The translations under genes and the position numbers were made by a program. Below the pieces are notes generated by a model. It made no database searches. It had not been told where the DNA came from and saw only the letters and a program-made list of their open reading frames with translations. Source: Byssovorax sp. (GTDB lineage: Bacteria; Myxococcota_A; Polyangia; Polyangiales; Polyangiaceae). From it: a stretch of 45,424 nt of DNA. This document shows, piece by piece, positions 1,845 through 5,361 of this stretch (position 1 is its first letter; each line of letters opens with the position of its first letter). The stretch lies in assembly GCA_025362495.1 (NCBI GenBank), contig JANYGI010000012.1, forward strand, positions 1 to 45,424, in the 5' to 3' direction.

Positions 1845-4394
1845 CTAGTCGTCCACGCGCAAGGACCTGACCAGTCGAATCCCGAGCATGGTGGCTCGAT
1901 TTCCTGGAGGTGTCGCGAACCGCGCTGCGGAGCGGCTGAACGCCATGGGACTGGCCCACCCCCCGCCTCTCACCGACCTCAGATCCTTGTCCTCGAGCGC
2001 GGCCGCATCGATGGACAACCGACCTTGTCGAATGGGCGGTCCATTGTGTCGCCAGACGTTGGTGCACCAGTCTCGCGTGTTGCCCGCCAGCCCGCGGACC
2101 CCGTACGGGCTCTCGTCGTGGGGATATTCGCCGATGATCGCCCGCTGCGGGATGCGTTCAAAGCTTCCCTCCGCCACGCAGGCGAACGTCGCGTCGATCT
2201 CGTCGCCCCAGGGATAAACTCGGCCGTCAGCGCCGCGCGCCGCCTTCTCTCGCTCGAGATCGTTTGGTAACCGCCATGGCTTGCCTGATTTTTCGGCGAG
2301 CCAGCGAGCGTACGCCGACGCTGAATGCCAGTCGACGAGGACGACTGGCAGATCGGGCAGCCACCTTGGATTCGGCCCCTCCTGCCGTGGCTCGAAGCGG
2401 CCTCCAGCGTCACGGCAAAACATCAGCTGCTCGGCACCGGCGCGCAGACGAGGGCAGCAATCGATTGCTTCAGCCTCGCGACCCGAGTCGAGCAAGTCAT
2501 TCAAGAAGACCAGATACTCGGAGTTCGTGAGCGGGAAGCGCTGAATCACGAAGCTGCCTATCCACGCCCGATGACGCGTCAAGCTATCTGCCGCAAGCGG
2601 ATCTCCGCCGATATAGCCGTAGCCGGCGGGCACATAGACATCTGCTGCGCCAAGCTCTCCTTCGGGCGGCAGATCGATCGGATAAGGCTCCAGCTCCCCT
2701 GGCCGTCGCCCGTCCCAGTGGCTGTCGCGTTCGAGCAGAATTGGATAGAGAGTCTCGACGCGCCCAGGCGATCGGATGCGCAGCCGGTAGCGCCCCCGGG
2801 CGAGCGGGATCCCGATGAGGGGAGTCCTGCCAATCGCTTCTGCAGGCTCCGGAACGAGCCGGTGATCGATTGACGCGTAACGCTCGAGGAGGACCTCTGC
2901 GTCGCTCGGGTTCGTGACGAGCGTGAGCGCGGCCTCCCCCCTGAGAAAGGCGACGTGTTTGCCGCGATCGTGACCTCGGAGCAGCACCTCGAACTGCGCA
3001 GCATCCTCGTCTTGATGGGCCAGCTCGGCTGCCGTGAGCCGCTCGCGGTAATAGTCCGCCAGCGCCGCGTGAGCCTCCGGCAGATCCGGATCCTGGCTCA
3101 GCGCCCCGCGCACCGTGCCCTGCCACTCCGCCTCGCAGAACGCAGCCTCGCGCGTCAGCCGCGCCGCCTCGCTCTGCAAGTGCCACCCCGGCCGCTTGCG
3201 ATCGATCGGATCCGACGGCCGCACCCTGGCGAGCAATGCCTCGGCCTCGGCCTGCGCTGCGGCCGCGCGGGCGCGCAGCTCCGCGATGCGCGGCTCGAGC
3301 GCGCGCGCCTCGGTGAGCACGGCGAGGGCGCGCTCGCGGCGGAGATCCTCGTCGAGCCACGTCAGCACCTCCTGCGCGAGGCTCGACGCGTCGGCGTAGC
3401 GATCCTCGATCGCGCGCTGCATCGCGCGCTCGGCGATCGCCACCAGCGCGAGCGGCAGCGGTGGCCCGCCGCGCGAGGCCTCGTCGATCGACTTCGGCGG
3501 TCCCGCCAGCACGCGGTGCCACACCATGTTGCTGTCGCCGTCGTACGGCGGCCGCCCCGTGAGCAGGTGATAGAGGATCGCCCCGAGCGCGTACACGTCG
3601 CTCGGCGGACCATGGAGATCACGCAGCCCGCGCGCCTGCTCGGGCGACATGTACGCCGGGGTCCCGAGCACCTCGCCGTACTTCGTTTCAGGGAGGATCC
3701 GCGTCGTCGCGCCCGGCGATGCGGGCGCTGATCGACGGAACGTGGGCGGCGGGATCGACGGCGTGTCGCGCCGGCTCGCGGGGCTCTCGCCCGGATCGTT
3801 GACGTACCGCGCGAGCCCCCAGTCCATCACCAGCACCTCGCCGAAGGTACCGGTCATGACGTTCTCGGGCTTGAGATCGCGGTGCATCACCTGGCAACTG
3901 TGGGCGTAGCCGACGGCCTGGCTCACGCGCGCGAACGCGTCGATGAGCCGACGGAACGTCCAGCCCGAGGCCGTCGCGCGGAAGCCGTCGGGCCCCGACG
4001 CCGCGTGGACCTCGCGGATCACCGCGCCGAGCGTGCGCCCATCGACGACCTTCATCGTGTACCAGAGCCGGCGATCCTCGAGCTCGCCGCGATCGTGAAC
4101 CGCCACGATCCCCGGGTGCTGCAGCCTCGCCGTGATCTGCGCCTCGGCGAGAAAGCGCGCGCGCACGCGGCTGTCATCCACGTACTCCCAGCGCAGGAGC
4201 TTCATCGCCAGCTCGCGATCGAGCACCGTGTCGTGGACGCGCCGCACCTCGCCGAACGACCCGCTCGCGATGCGACCGACCGCGCGATAACGCTCGGGGA
4301 GGCGCGACGACTCGGGGGCCTCGTCCCGCTCCGAATCGGGAGGCGCAGGCTCGGTGGCGGGCAGGTTCTTGTTCACGTCCGTCACGTCCGTCAC
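1845..4394 (-). CDS. Ser/Thr protein kinase fused to FGE-sulfatase-like domain
   Basis: Hanks-type kinase of about 849 residues. The kinase domain (about 36-330) has a glycine loop GRIASGSFGEV, Lys65 in AMKLL, the catalytic loop HRDLKPEN (171-178), DWG instead of DFG (191-193), and the APE-equivalent SPEQ. A charged, Ala-rich coiled-coil-like segment (about 345-395) leads to a middle region and then a formylglycine-generating-enzyme/SUMF1-like domain (about 587-845). That domain shows WRLPNDLEREKAARGADG, YPWGDE, GLAGNTRDW and SVRGGGW. Kinase-FGE fusions are known in myxobacteria and chlamydiae, where the FGE fold is usually a binding or output module. No membrane segment is evident. The open frame extends further upstream, but that extension is antisense to the FHA gene. 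The start is taken at one of three GTG codons 9 bp apart (ends 4394, 4385, 4376). It is divergent from the FHA regulator. Confidence 0.88.
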   Translation of the reverse strand: MTDVTDVNKNLPATEPAPPDSERDEAPESSRLPERYRAVGRIASGSFGEVRRVHDTVLDRELAMKLLRWEYVDDSRVRARFLAEAQITARLQHPGIVAVHDRGELEDRRLWYTMKVVDGRTLGAVIREVHAASGPDGFRATASGWTFRRLIDAFARVSQAVGYAHSCQVMHRDLKPENVMTGTFGEVLVMDWGLARYVNDPGESPASRRDTPSIPPPTFRRSAPASPGATTRILPETKYGEVLGTPAYMSPEQARGLRDLHGPPSDVYALGAILYHLLTGRPPYDGDSNMVWHRVLAGPPKSIDEASRGGPPLPLALVAIAERAMQRAIEDRYADASSLAQEVLTWLDEDLRRERALAVLTEARALEPRIAELRARAAAAQAEAEALLARVRPSDPIDRKRPGWHLQSEAARLTREAAFCEAEWQGTVRGALSQDPDLPEAHAALADYYRERLTAAELAHQDEDAAQFEVLLRGHDRGKHVAFLRGEAALTLVTNPSDAEVLLERYASIDHRLVPEPAEAIGRTPLIGIPLARGRYRLRIRSPGRVETLYPILLERDSHWDGRRPGELEPYPIDLPPEGELGAADVYVPAGYGYIGGDPLAADSLTRHRAWIGSFVIQRFPLTNSEYLVFLNDLLDSGREAEAIDCCPRLRAGAEQLMFCRDAGGRFEPRQEGPNPRWLPDLPVVLVDWHSASAYARWLAEKSGKPWRLPNDLEREKAARGADGRVYPWGDEIDATFACVAEGSFERIPQRAIIGEYPHDESPYGVRGLAGNTRDWCTNVWRHNGPPIRQGRLSIDAAALEDKDLRSVRGGGWASPMAFSRSAARFATPPGNRATMLGIRLVRSLRVDD

Positions 4395-4397
4395 GTC
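4374..4397. repeat. 9-bp triplicated repeat over the kinase start codons
   Basis: CACGTCCGT occurs at 4374-4382 and 4383-4391, and its first six bases recur at 4392-4397. Read on the minus strand, each copy supplies an in-frame GTG followed by Thr-Asp, so the repeat provides three alternative starts for the kinase. Gain or loss of a copy would keep the frame. Confidence 0.8.
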
Positions 4398-4449
4398 AGA
4401 TCGGCAGATACGATACCATGACCATCCGAAAGGCGGCGCAGAGCAAGGC

Positions 4450-5361
4450 ATGGGAGTTCTCGAGGCGCGAGGTACGAAGCAGCTCCACACGCTGGCCGCG
4501 CGCTGCCTCGTCGGCCGCCACGCGGCCTGCGATCTCCGCGTCGAGAGCCCCCTCGTGTCCGCGGAGCACGCCAGCCTGCGCTGGACGGGCGACGGCTGGA
4601 CGCTGAAGGATCTCGGCAGCCGCAACGGTACGTTCGTCGACGGCGAGCGGCTCGGCGCGGGCAAGATGGCCGAGCTCGCCGAGGGCGCGACGTTCGCCGT
4701 GGGCGAGCGCGGCCTCGCGTTCACGCTCGTCGACGCCGCCCCGCCGATCGTCGGCGCGCGCCACCTCGCGACGGGCCACACGCGCCGCGCCGAGGGCGGC
4801 CTCCTCGTGCTGCCCGGCGACGACGATCCGCGCGTGAGCATCTTCCAGGACGCCGAGGGCGAGTGGGTGGTCGAGTCCGAGGACGCCAAGCGCCCCGCGA
4901 TCGATCGCGACGTCGTCACCGTCGCCGGCGACGCGTGGGTGCTCGAGCTGCCTTCGGTCGTCGGCGGGACCTGGCAGGCCGAGGCCGCCCCGCCGACGCT
5001 GGAGACCATCGATCTGCGCCTCGGCGTGAGCCGCGACGAAGAGCACGTCGAGGTCGTCATCGTGCACCAGGGCAGCCCCACGCCCCTGCCCTCGCGGCGA
5101 TATCACTATCTGCTGCTGATCCTCGCGCGAGAGCGCCTGTCGGAGCGCTTCGCGTCCGTGGCCGAGCGCGGCTGGATCGACCGAGAGGCCCTCTGCAAGA
5201 AGCTCGGAGTGGACACCAATCGTCTCAACGTCGACGTCTTCCGCCTGCGCAAGCAGCTCGCCGACCTCGGGATCCAGGGGATCTCCGGCCTCGTCGCGCG
5301 CCGCCCCGACACCGGTCAGCTCCGCCTGGGCACCGACCGGGTCGAGGTCAACTTGCTTTGA
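4450..5361 (+). CDS. FHA domain protein with C-terminal winged-helix domain
   Basis: A 303-residue protein. The N-terminal FHA domain (about 18-95) reads phosphothreonine. It has GRHAACDLR, the SAEH motif (His40) and GSRNGTFVDGERL. The last ~95 residues resemble a winged-helix, OmpR-like DNA-binding fold: RRYHYLLLILARERL, then EALCKKLGVDTNRLNVDVFRLRKQL, then a beta wing (RRPDTGQLRLG). The inferred role is a transcription factor controlled by Thr phosphorylation. The ATG at 4450 is chosen because upstream in-frame codons run into the 9-bp repeat and give no FHA sequence. It is divergent from the kinase gene, about 55 bp between starts, and its stop lies 3 bp from the convergent fumarase stop. 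The FHA call is strong; the winged-helix call is by pattern. Confidence 0.85.
   Translation: MGVLEARGTKQLHTLAARCLVGRHAACDLRVESPLVSAEHASLRWTGDGWTLKDLGSRNGTFVDGERLGAGKMAELAEGATFAVGERGLAFTLVDAAPPIVGARHLATGHTRRAEGGLLVLPGDDDPRVSIFQDAEGEWVVESEDAKRPAIDRDVVTVAGDAWVLELPSVVGGTWQAEAAPPTLETIDLRLGVSRDEEHVEVVIVHQGSPTPLPSRRYHYLLLILARERLSERFASVAERGWIDREALCKKLGVDTNRLNVDVFRLRKQLADLGIQGISGLVARRPDTGQLRLGTDRVEVNLL

Follow-up and report, generated by a model that had tools for sequence, protein, structure and literature searches.

A divergent kinase and regulator gene pair

We analysed a 45,424-nucleotide stretch of DNA from Byssovorax sp. (hereafter the window), a complete contig (JANYGI010000012.1) of a 10.8-Mb genome, in which two genes lie head-to-head, 55 bp apart: one on the reverse strand (1845-4394) for a serine/threonine kinase that ends in a domain of the formylglycine-generating enzyme (FGE) fold, and one on the forward strand (4450-5361) for an FHA protein that we read as a transcription regulator. 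Both genes were found where an earlier sequence-only reading, made from the letters of this DNA, had placed them. A third gene, absent from that reading, encodes a caspase-like (Peptidase_C14) protein at 123-1802 on the forward strand and is convergent with the kinase gene, with 42 bp between the stop codons. Judging by the comparisons described below, we put at roughly 0.6 the probability that the divergent genes form a dedicated kinase-to-transcription-factor module switched by phosphothreonine, likely with the caspase-like protein as a third partner.

The kinase gene encodes 849 residues when read from the GTG at 4394, the start on which the 55-bp spacing depends; two further in-frame GTGs, at 4385 and 4376, could serve instead. 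Its protein kinase domain (residues 37-289, 3528-4286, reverse strand; Pfam Pkinase, E value 6e-32) carries the lysine, HRDLKPEN and DWG motifs expected of a Hanks-type serine/threonine kinase, and the lysine, HRD and DWG are conserved across 34 kinase-FGE proteins, in none of which a search for a membrane anchor found a strongly hydrophobic 19-residue stretch (highest mean 1.7). Beyond a middle region, the FGE-sulfatase domain of C-type lectin fold (residues 586-843, 1866-2639, reverse strand; Pfam E value 1e-33) was aligned to a solved FGE and has serine at both positions of what we take to be the catalytic cysteine pair of that enzyme. On this ground we reject FGE catalysis for the window protein, and a ligand-binding, lectin-type fold appears more likely than an enzyme. 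Among solved structures the closest to this domain are ToxD, which was deposited as a kinase, and PvdO. By eye, and without a count, a cysteine is seen near the second catalytic position in some relatives.

The regulator has 303 residues from an ATG at 4450, a start supported by the alignment of relatives, since a start codon falls at this residue in most of them. All its parts lie on the forward strand: an FHA domain (residues 20-85, 4507-4704; Pfam E value 1e-18), a middle region (residues 98-168, 4741-4953), a linker threonine, T174 (codon 4969-4971), and a C-terminal domain (residues 184-303, 4999-5358). Neither a histidine kinase nor a receiver domain was matched by Pfam in the kinase or the regulator. 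The middle region resembles an FHA domain weakly (probability 18, with eight decoys below 1) and is possibly a degenerate second copy. A single-protein search of genome contigs gave only an FHA match, from a planctomycete.

Searching with the FHA protein at E values up to 1e-15 found relatives in 33 of 108 genomes of the same taxonomic family, and 50 of these places align with the window over their full length (51 sequences; a partial match in genome G084 was not fetched). A profile of the C-terminal domain is present in 79 of 377 genomes of the phylum, with up to ten copies per genome, mostly in reading frames of at least about 300 residues. For the comparisons below we used 111 loci (numbered with L), made up of the 50 family places, the window and 60 of the best matches outside the family, leaving out the partial L111; because these 60 were chosen from the best matches listed instead of being sampled at random, rates of co-occurrence may carry a bias. 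The family profile aligns from the N-terminal part in 107 of the 111, the other four (L175, L197, L185 and L213) being short or different there.

Across this set the FHA residues that presumably contact phosphothreonine, as in known structures, are near-invariant and all present in the window protein: G22, R23 and S37 in 107 of 107 aligned letters, H40 in 106 of 107 and N59 in 107 of 108. T174, between the middle region and the C-terminal domain, is threonine in 102 of 109 aligned sequences, in a linker whose adjacent positions vary freely, and in most rows printed it sits six residues past a conserved proline. This pattern makes it a good candidate phosphosite. A point to the contrary is that T174 is retained in L291, where a kinase stands in for the FHA domain, so the residue may instead be structural.

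Six FHA-winged-helix loci without a kinase-FGE gene (L083, L085, L099, L102, L105 and L196) have two neighbour families in common. Since the scanned members of these families are TfuA-like (L085) and YcaO (L102), another branch of the regulator family may be tied to peptide-modification clusters.

The C-terminal domain of the regulator

The C-terminal domain is best explained as a divergent winged helix of the OmpR/PhoB type, because of a profile match through a distant subgroup of the family and because of the domain swaps and fusions in which it takes part. The distant subgroup (21 sequences from the phylum-wide search) aligns in register with 37 OmpR-type domains from the Byssovorax genome and related ones (hhalign probability 87, E value 3.7e-6, 45 columns), with none of 100 decoys scoring as well and the MarR and GntR controls below 1, and it matches the main family with probability 99. 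One of its members, L274, has as its only Pfam match Trans_reg_C (PF00486), at 17.4 bits under a cut-off of 26.2. A VWG motif and a recognition-helix pattern are seen in the distant subgroup, and in the full set arginines in the predicted recognition helix and wing are conserved (R265 and R267 in 111 of 111 sequences, R284 and R292 in 106 of 111).

The company that the domain keeps points the same way. Sigma54 activators usually carry a Fis domain at their C-terminus, as observed in L304, L299 and L300. The activator of L197 (6044-7651, reverse strand) ends in the winged-helix domain of this family in the usual Fis position, and about 30 bp separate the start of its gene from that of a divergent kinase gene. 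In L175 (5978-7231, reverse strand) and L291 (1997-3337, reverse strand) a serine/threonine kinase is fused to the C-terminal domain; in the L291 protein, which the contig end truncates at the N-terminus, the kinase takes the FHA place and the middle region is retained. Both are possible one-protein kinase-transcription factors.

Several results weigh against this assignment. The C-terminal half of the window protein is unmatched in Pfam, and Trans_reg_C was not matched in any of the 51 family members at E values up to 1. The best PDB hit, the DNA-binding domain of SaeR, reaches E values of only 0.1 with the 51-sequence profile and 0.3 with a 96-sequence profile, and single-sequence structure models are poor (pLDDT 37 and 39). 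The main-family profile aligns with the 37 OmpR-type domains at an hhalign probability of only 14 over 58 columns, which is still above 100 of 100 decoys, with MarR and GntR profiles below 1. An alternative is that the domain derives from a winged helix but has become a protein-interaction module, making the gene pair a signalling scaffold; in its favour, none of the curated families recognises the domain at its cut-off in the window protein, nor in the 51 members (there are scattered weak matches only). We consider this alternative unlikely given the position of the domain at the end of the L197 activator, the motif and helix pattern of the distant subgroup and the four conserved arginines. 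The sequence-only reading had suggested a DNA-binding winged helix here; the distant-subgroup match and the domain swaps back that suggestion, and nothing indicated a fold of another function, the structure models themselves not being confident.

Pairing, exchange and a convergent third gene

The pairing of kinase and regulator is conserved, as had been supposed from the window alone. Among family relatives with at least 42 percent identity, all 24 fetched stretches contain a kinase orthologue, 20 divergent and four on the same strand (L077, L078, L080 and L081); the contig end cuts off its FGE part in L061, and that part is fragmentary in L069. Over the 111 loci, opposite-strand kinase domains start within 1 kb upstream of the regulator 35 times per 107 kb, compared with 5 times per 458 kb farther out (2, 0, 1, 2, 0 and 0 in the individual bins), and the divergent pairing is therefore more than chance. 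A kinase lies within 400 bp of the regulator gene in 56 of 111 loci: divergent and with an FGE domain in 26, divergent without one in 9, tandem in 18, convergent in 2 and fused in 1. As a rough control that compares proximity only and not geometry, any kinase domain occurs within about 1.5 kb in 8 of 29 other FHA loci of the Byssovorax genome.

The two partners also diverge in step. Distances among the 34 kinase-FGE proteins correlate with those among the regulators of the same loci (mirror-tree r 0.85); with partners shuffled within genomes that hold several pairs, the mean r is 0.58 and the real value was reached in 0 of 5,000 shuffles. Two observations count against a dedicated module at this point, namely that a kinase within 400 bp is lacking for the other 55 of the 111 regulator genes and that tight linkage alone would also give matching trees. 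A separate reading holds that the pair is conserved merely through inheritance as a block of neighbours, without functional coupling. On a tree of 108 rows (three short rows were left out), linkage to a kinase-FGE gene does cluster, requiring 10 changes compared with 29 in shuffles. The three neighbour labels together require about 30 changes, fewer than in shuffles but many, so that linkage has been gained or lost many times. Inheritance as a block is very improbable in our view: uncoupled genes would hardly occur in divergent, tandem and fused arrangements or have their regulator slot taken by a sigma54-type activator. Although linkage could account for matching trees, the fusions and swaps favour coupling.

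The slot exchange emerged from 20 unpaired kinase-FGE loci, hand-picked where no FHA-winged-helix gene had been found. At four of them (L295, L296, L297 and L298) a divergent sigma54-type activator replaces the regulator gene and at L304 an FHA-sigma54-Fis activator stands in tandem with the kinase-FGE gene, so that an activator of this type is the immediate neighbour in 5 of 20; at three others (L299, L300 and L302) an FHA-bearing activator like that of L304 lies within about 4 kb. Since sigma54-type activators fill the regulator slot, a transcription factor seems to be a frequent neighbour of kinase-FGE genes. Against this stand the 15 of 20 loci without a sigma54 activator as immediate neighbour among the neighbours scanned, and no activator was recognised at all in 12 of the 20, where neighbours were scanned in part and some contigs end. 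The activators of L295-L298 have GNVKGYPNPG-like loops in place of GAFTGA, the usual sigma54-activator motif, and may not act with sigma54.

The third gene of the window also has counterparts elsewhere. The caspase-like protein has both catalytic motifs, with the histidine in SGHG and the cysteine in DCCHSG, and a Pfam caspase domain occurs in ten of the convergent proteins scanned (the window, L062, L190, L293, L296, L297, L073, L077, L294 and L295). When neighbours were clustered, the caspase-like genes and the small-protein sets were found only at kinase-FGE loci (12 of 12 for cluster c0, 7 of 7 for c2), and the other common neighbours (c1 and c3-c5) are not specific to such loci. A convergent gene lies within 120 bp of 26 of 33 kinase-FGE genes (L065, whose flank is too short, was left out), compared with 6 of 39 kinases without an FGE domain, and it is found in 12 of 19 unpaired kinase-FGE loci (leaving out L305, where kinase and FGE are in different frames). 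Third-component genes are thus mostly convergent at the 3' end of the kinase gene, whereas L079 and L087 have a member on the regulator strand, directly downstream of that gene. The neighbour gene caller, based on codon GC bias, is crude, and some starts and frames are misplaced: the convergent gene of L210 looks wrong-framed, that of L075 is over-long, and kinase and regulator reading frames are merged or overlapping in a few loci.

The small convergent proteins and the C-termini of some caspase-like ones have in common a domain rich in tryptophan and tyrosine, for which Pfam gives no significant match. Depending on the seed, profile iteration links between 1 and 22 of the 30 third-component candidates; the alignment A4 was made from 18 selected rows. 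The C-terminus of the window caspase was joined to none of the candidates and has no match in its own genome, and its place in the set rests on position and on its caspase-domain relatives. In the 108 genomes the profile of the Trp/Tyr-rich domain finds 35 places, spread over 16 genomes; going by our reading of the coordinates, a kinase-FGE gene lies within about 3 kb of 24 of them, and 11 have none so close. The convergent protein diverges faster than kinase and regulator in 7 of 8 close pairs (71 percent identity compared with 92 for the regulator and 93 for the kinase in one example), the pair L075-L076 having no difference. We regard the caspase-like gene as a likely third partner or output of the module. 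PADLOC matched the window kinase and caspase only; the FHA protein and two small convergent proteins were unmatched. Beside the convergent protein, L063 (10319-10999, reverse strand), L066 and L067 have a second small protein (cluster c18), weakly like the PixA inclusion body family (E value 0.09).

The convergent gene also bears on a different division of labour, in which the regulator binds DNA but its FHA domain takes its input from other kinases or serves oligomerisation, the kinase acts mainly on the caspase-like protein, and the genes are neighbours through belonging to one pathway instead of through direct action of one protein on the other. The half of the regulator genes without a close kinase would fit this, as would the convergent neighbour kept by kinase-FGE genes for which no FHA-winged-helix gene was found (L293 and L295-L302) and the FHA-mediated oligomerisation suggested for the mycobacterial regulator EspM in the consulted part of PMC7002343. 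The specific pairing of paralogues within genomes and the two fusions that unite kinase and DNA-binding domain in one protein speak against it, and we rate it as rather unlikely.

Two further genes of the window lie on the reverse strand beyond the regulator. At 7675-8592, 2.3 kb from the FHA-winged-helix gene, a second FHA protein has its FHA domain fused to a GGDEF diguanylate cyclase domain, and at 8923-9426 lies a gene for an Hcp-like type VI secretion protein (T6SS_HCP match), of which two scanned neighbours, the FHA-GGDEF protein and a beta-lactamase-fold protein, are not type VI secretion genes.

Autoregulation, known counterparts and a proposed mechanism

The sequence-only reading had also proposed that the regulator controls both genes through the divergent region (4395-4449), and here the comparison across loci gave no support. 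A promoter scan found no sigma70-type promoter in this region. A 9-bp tandem repeat (4373-4399) overlaps the kinase start codons, and it recurs in none of the 34 other divergent regions (the GC-rich 9-bp repeat of L061 is unrelated). Dropping six near-duplicate loci left 29 non-redundant divergent regions, whose top-ranking 6-, 7- and 8-mers occur no more often than the top-ranking words of shuffled sequences; no conserved operator was found. The word ATGGTA/TACCAT occurs in 9 of the 29 compared with 0.6 expected for that word; it looks like a minus-10 element and is present in the window as TACCAT at 4414-4419. The divergent region was also compared with the stretch upstream of the convergent gene: in 17 of 19 usable loci (20 were run, L209 having no upstream sequence) the two have 0 or 1 9-mers in common, the exceptions being L071 with six and L076 with five, GC-rich and largely overlapping. 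With no outstanding word in the 29 regions and a window repeat that is not common to the others, autoregulation through a conserved operator is unsupported. One terminator-like stem-loop (4349-4362, forward strand; 0.0 expected) lies inside the kinase coding sequence, close to the divergent region.

That a kinase can have an FHA transcription factor of its own is known in general from PknH-EmbR of Mycobacterium tuberculosis. In the consulted parts of the two accounts of that system (PMC9239209, PMC4601284), a serine/threonine kinase gene likewise adjoins the gene of a regulator with OmpR/PhoB-type and FHA domains, EmbR is a substrate of the kinase encoded in its own operon, and its FHA domain is needed for kinase interaction and phosphorylation, which in vivo was found only under acid and hypoxia (PMC9239209). 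EmbR has its DNA-binding domain at the N-terminus, a BTAD domain in the middle and FHA at the C-terminus, whereas here FHA is N-terminal and the winged helix C-terminal; and embR shares an operon with pknH, whereas here the genes are divergent, the kinase has an FGE domain and there is a third gene. BTAD was not matched in the window regulator (Pfam, E values up to 1), and we reject membership of the EmbR or SARP-FHA group on architecture, that is, on domain order and the lack of a BTAD match. Our best reading, by analogy, is that the module would work like PknH-EmbR with a different architecture.

Other systems resemble single parts of the module. EspM of mycobacteria has the same order as the window regulator, an N-terminal FHA domain and a C-terminal helix-turn-helix, and its C-terminal half was proposed, and tested, to bind DNA (PMC7002343, consulted in part); it differs in that no partner kinase is described in that part of the source, and only the FHA part of the window protein matches the NCBIfam EspM equivalog (17 bits, cut-off 550), so we do not assign it there. 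The Kinase-CLec proteins of cyanobacterial diversity-generating retroelements (PMC7517822, in the portion consulted) are like the window kinase in having an N-terminal putative serine kinase and a C-terminal lectin-fold domain; unlike them, the kinases here are partnered by an FHA regulator and by a third, convergent gene. Caspase conflict systems (EACC1-caspase and VMAP ternary systems) also have caspase-like effectors, FGE or lectin domains and kinases as parts, but an FHA transcription-factor module is not described in the consulted sections of PMC7159879 and PMC10907252. The window caspase scores 26 bits where the NCBIfam cut-off for EACC1-associated caspases is 140, and is not counted among them. 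By titles and abstract openings among the literature matches listed, in a search whose coverage left most subscription journals outside, no kinase/FHA-winged-helix module was found.

The recurrence of the pairing across the phylum, often with a caspase-like or small third partner, suggests a gene switch controlled by phosphorylation. The kinase, without a clear membrane anchor, would sense something, probably through its non-catalytic, lectin-fold FGE domain, and would then autophosphorylate, phosphorylate the regulator, or both. The FHA domain of the regulator could bind the resulting phosphothreonine, carried either by the kinase or by the regulator's own linker (T174), and binding would alter how the C-terminal OmpR/PhoB-type winged helix binds its DNA targets. 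The convergent caspase-like gene product may act as the third partner or as the output.

More tentatively, these loci may represent a three-part phospho-signalling cassette of Myxococcota, in which the kinase senses through its lectin fold, the transcription factor is exchangeable (of FHA-winged-helix or of sigma54 type) and the convergent partner mostly evolves faster. Such a cassette would in effect be a dedicated Ser/Thr-kinase counterpart of a two-component system, possibly controlling a cell-death, conflict or self-recognition output. As part of this same speculative proposal, the convergent partner might consist of a new domain alone or carry it at the C-terminus of a caspase-like protease.

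In sum, several signs couple this family of FHA-winged-helix regulators to kinases: gene position, matched distances among paralogues, fusions and the swapping of the regulator slot. With up to ten copies per genome, the specificity of kinase for regulator could be studied in this family as it has been for two-component systems, and the convergent caspase-like gene links the module to possible regulated cell death in multicellular bacteria.

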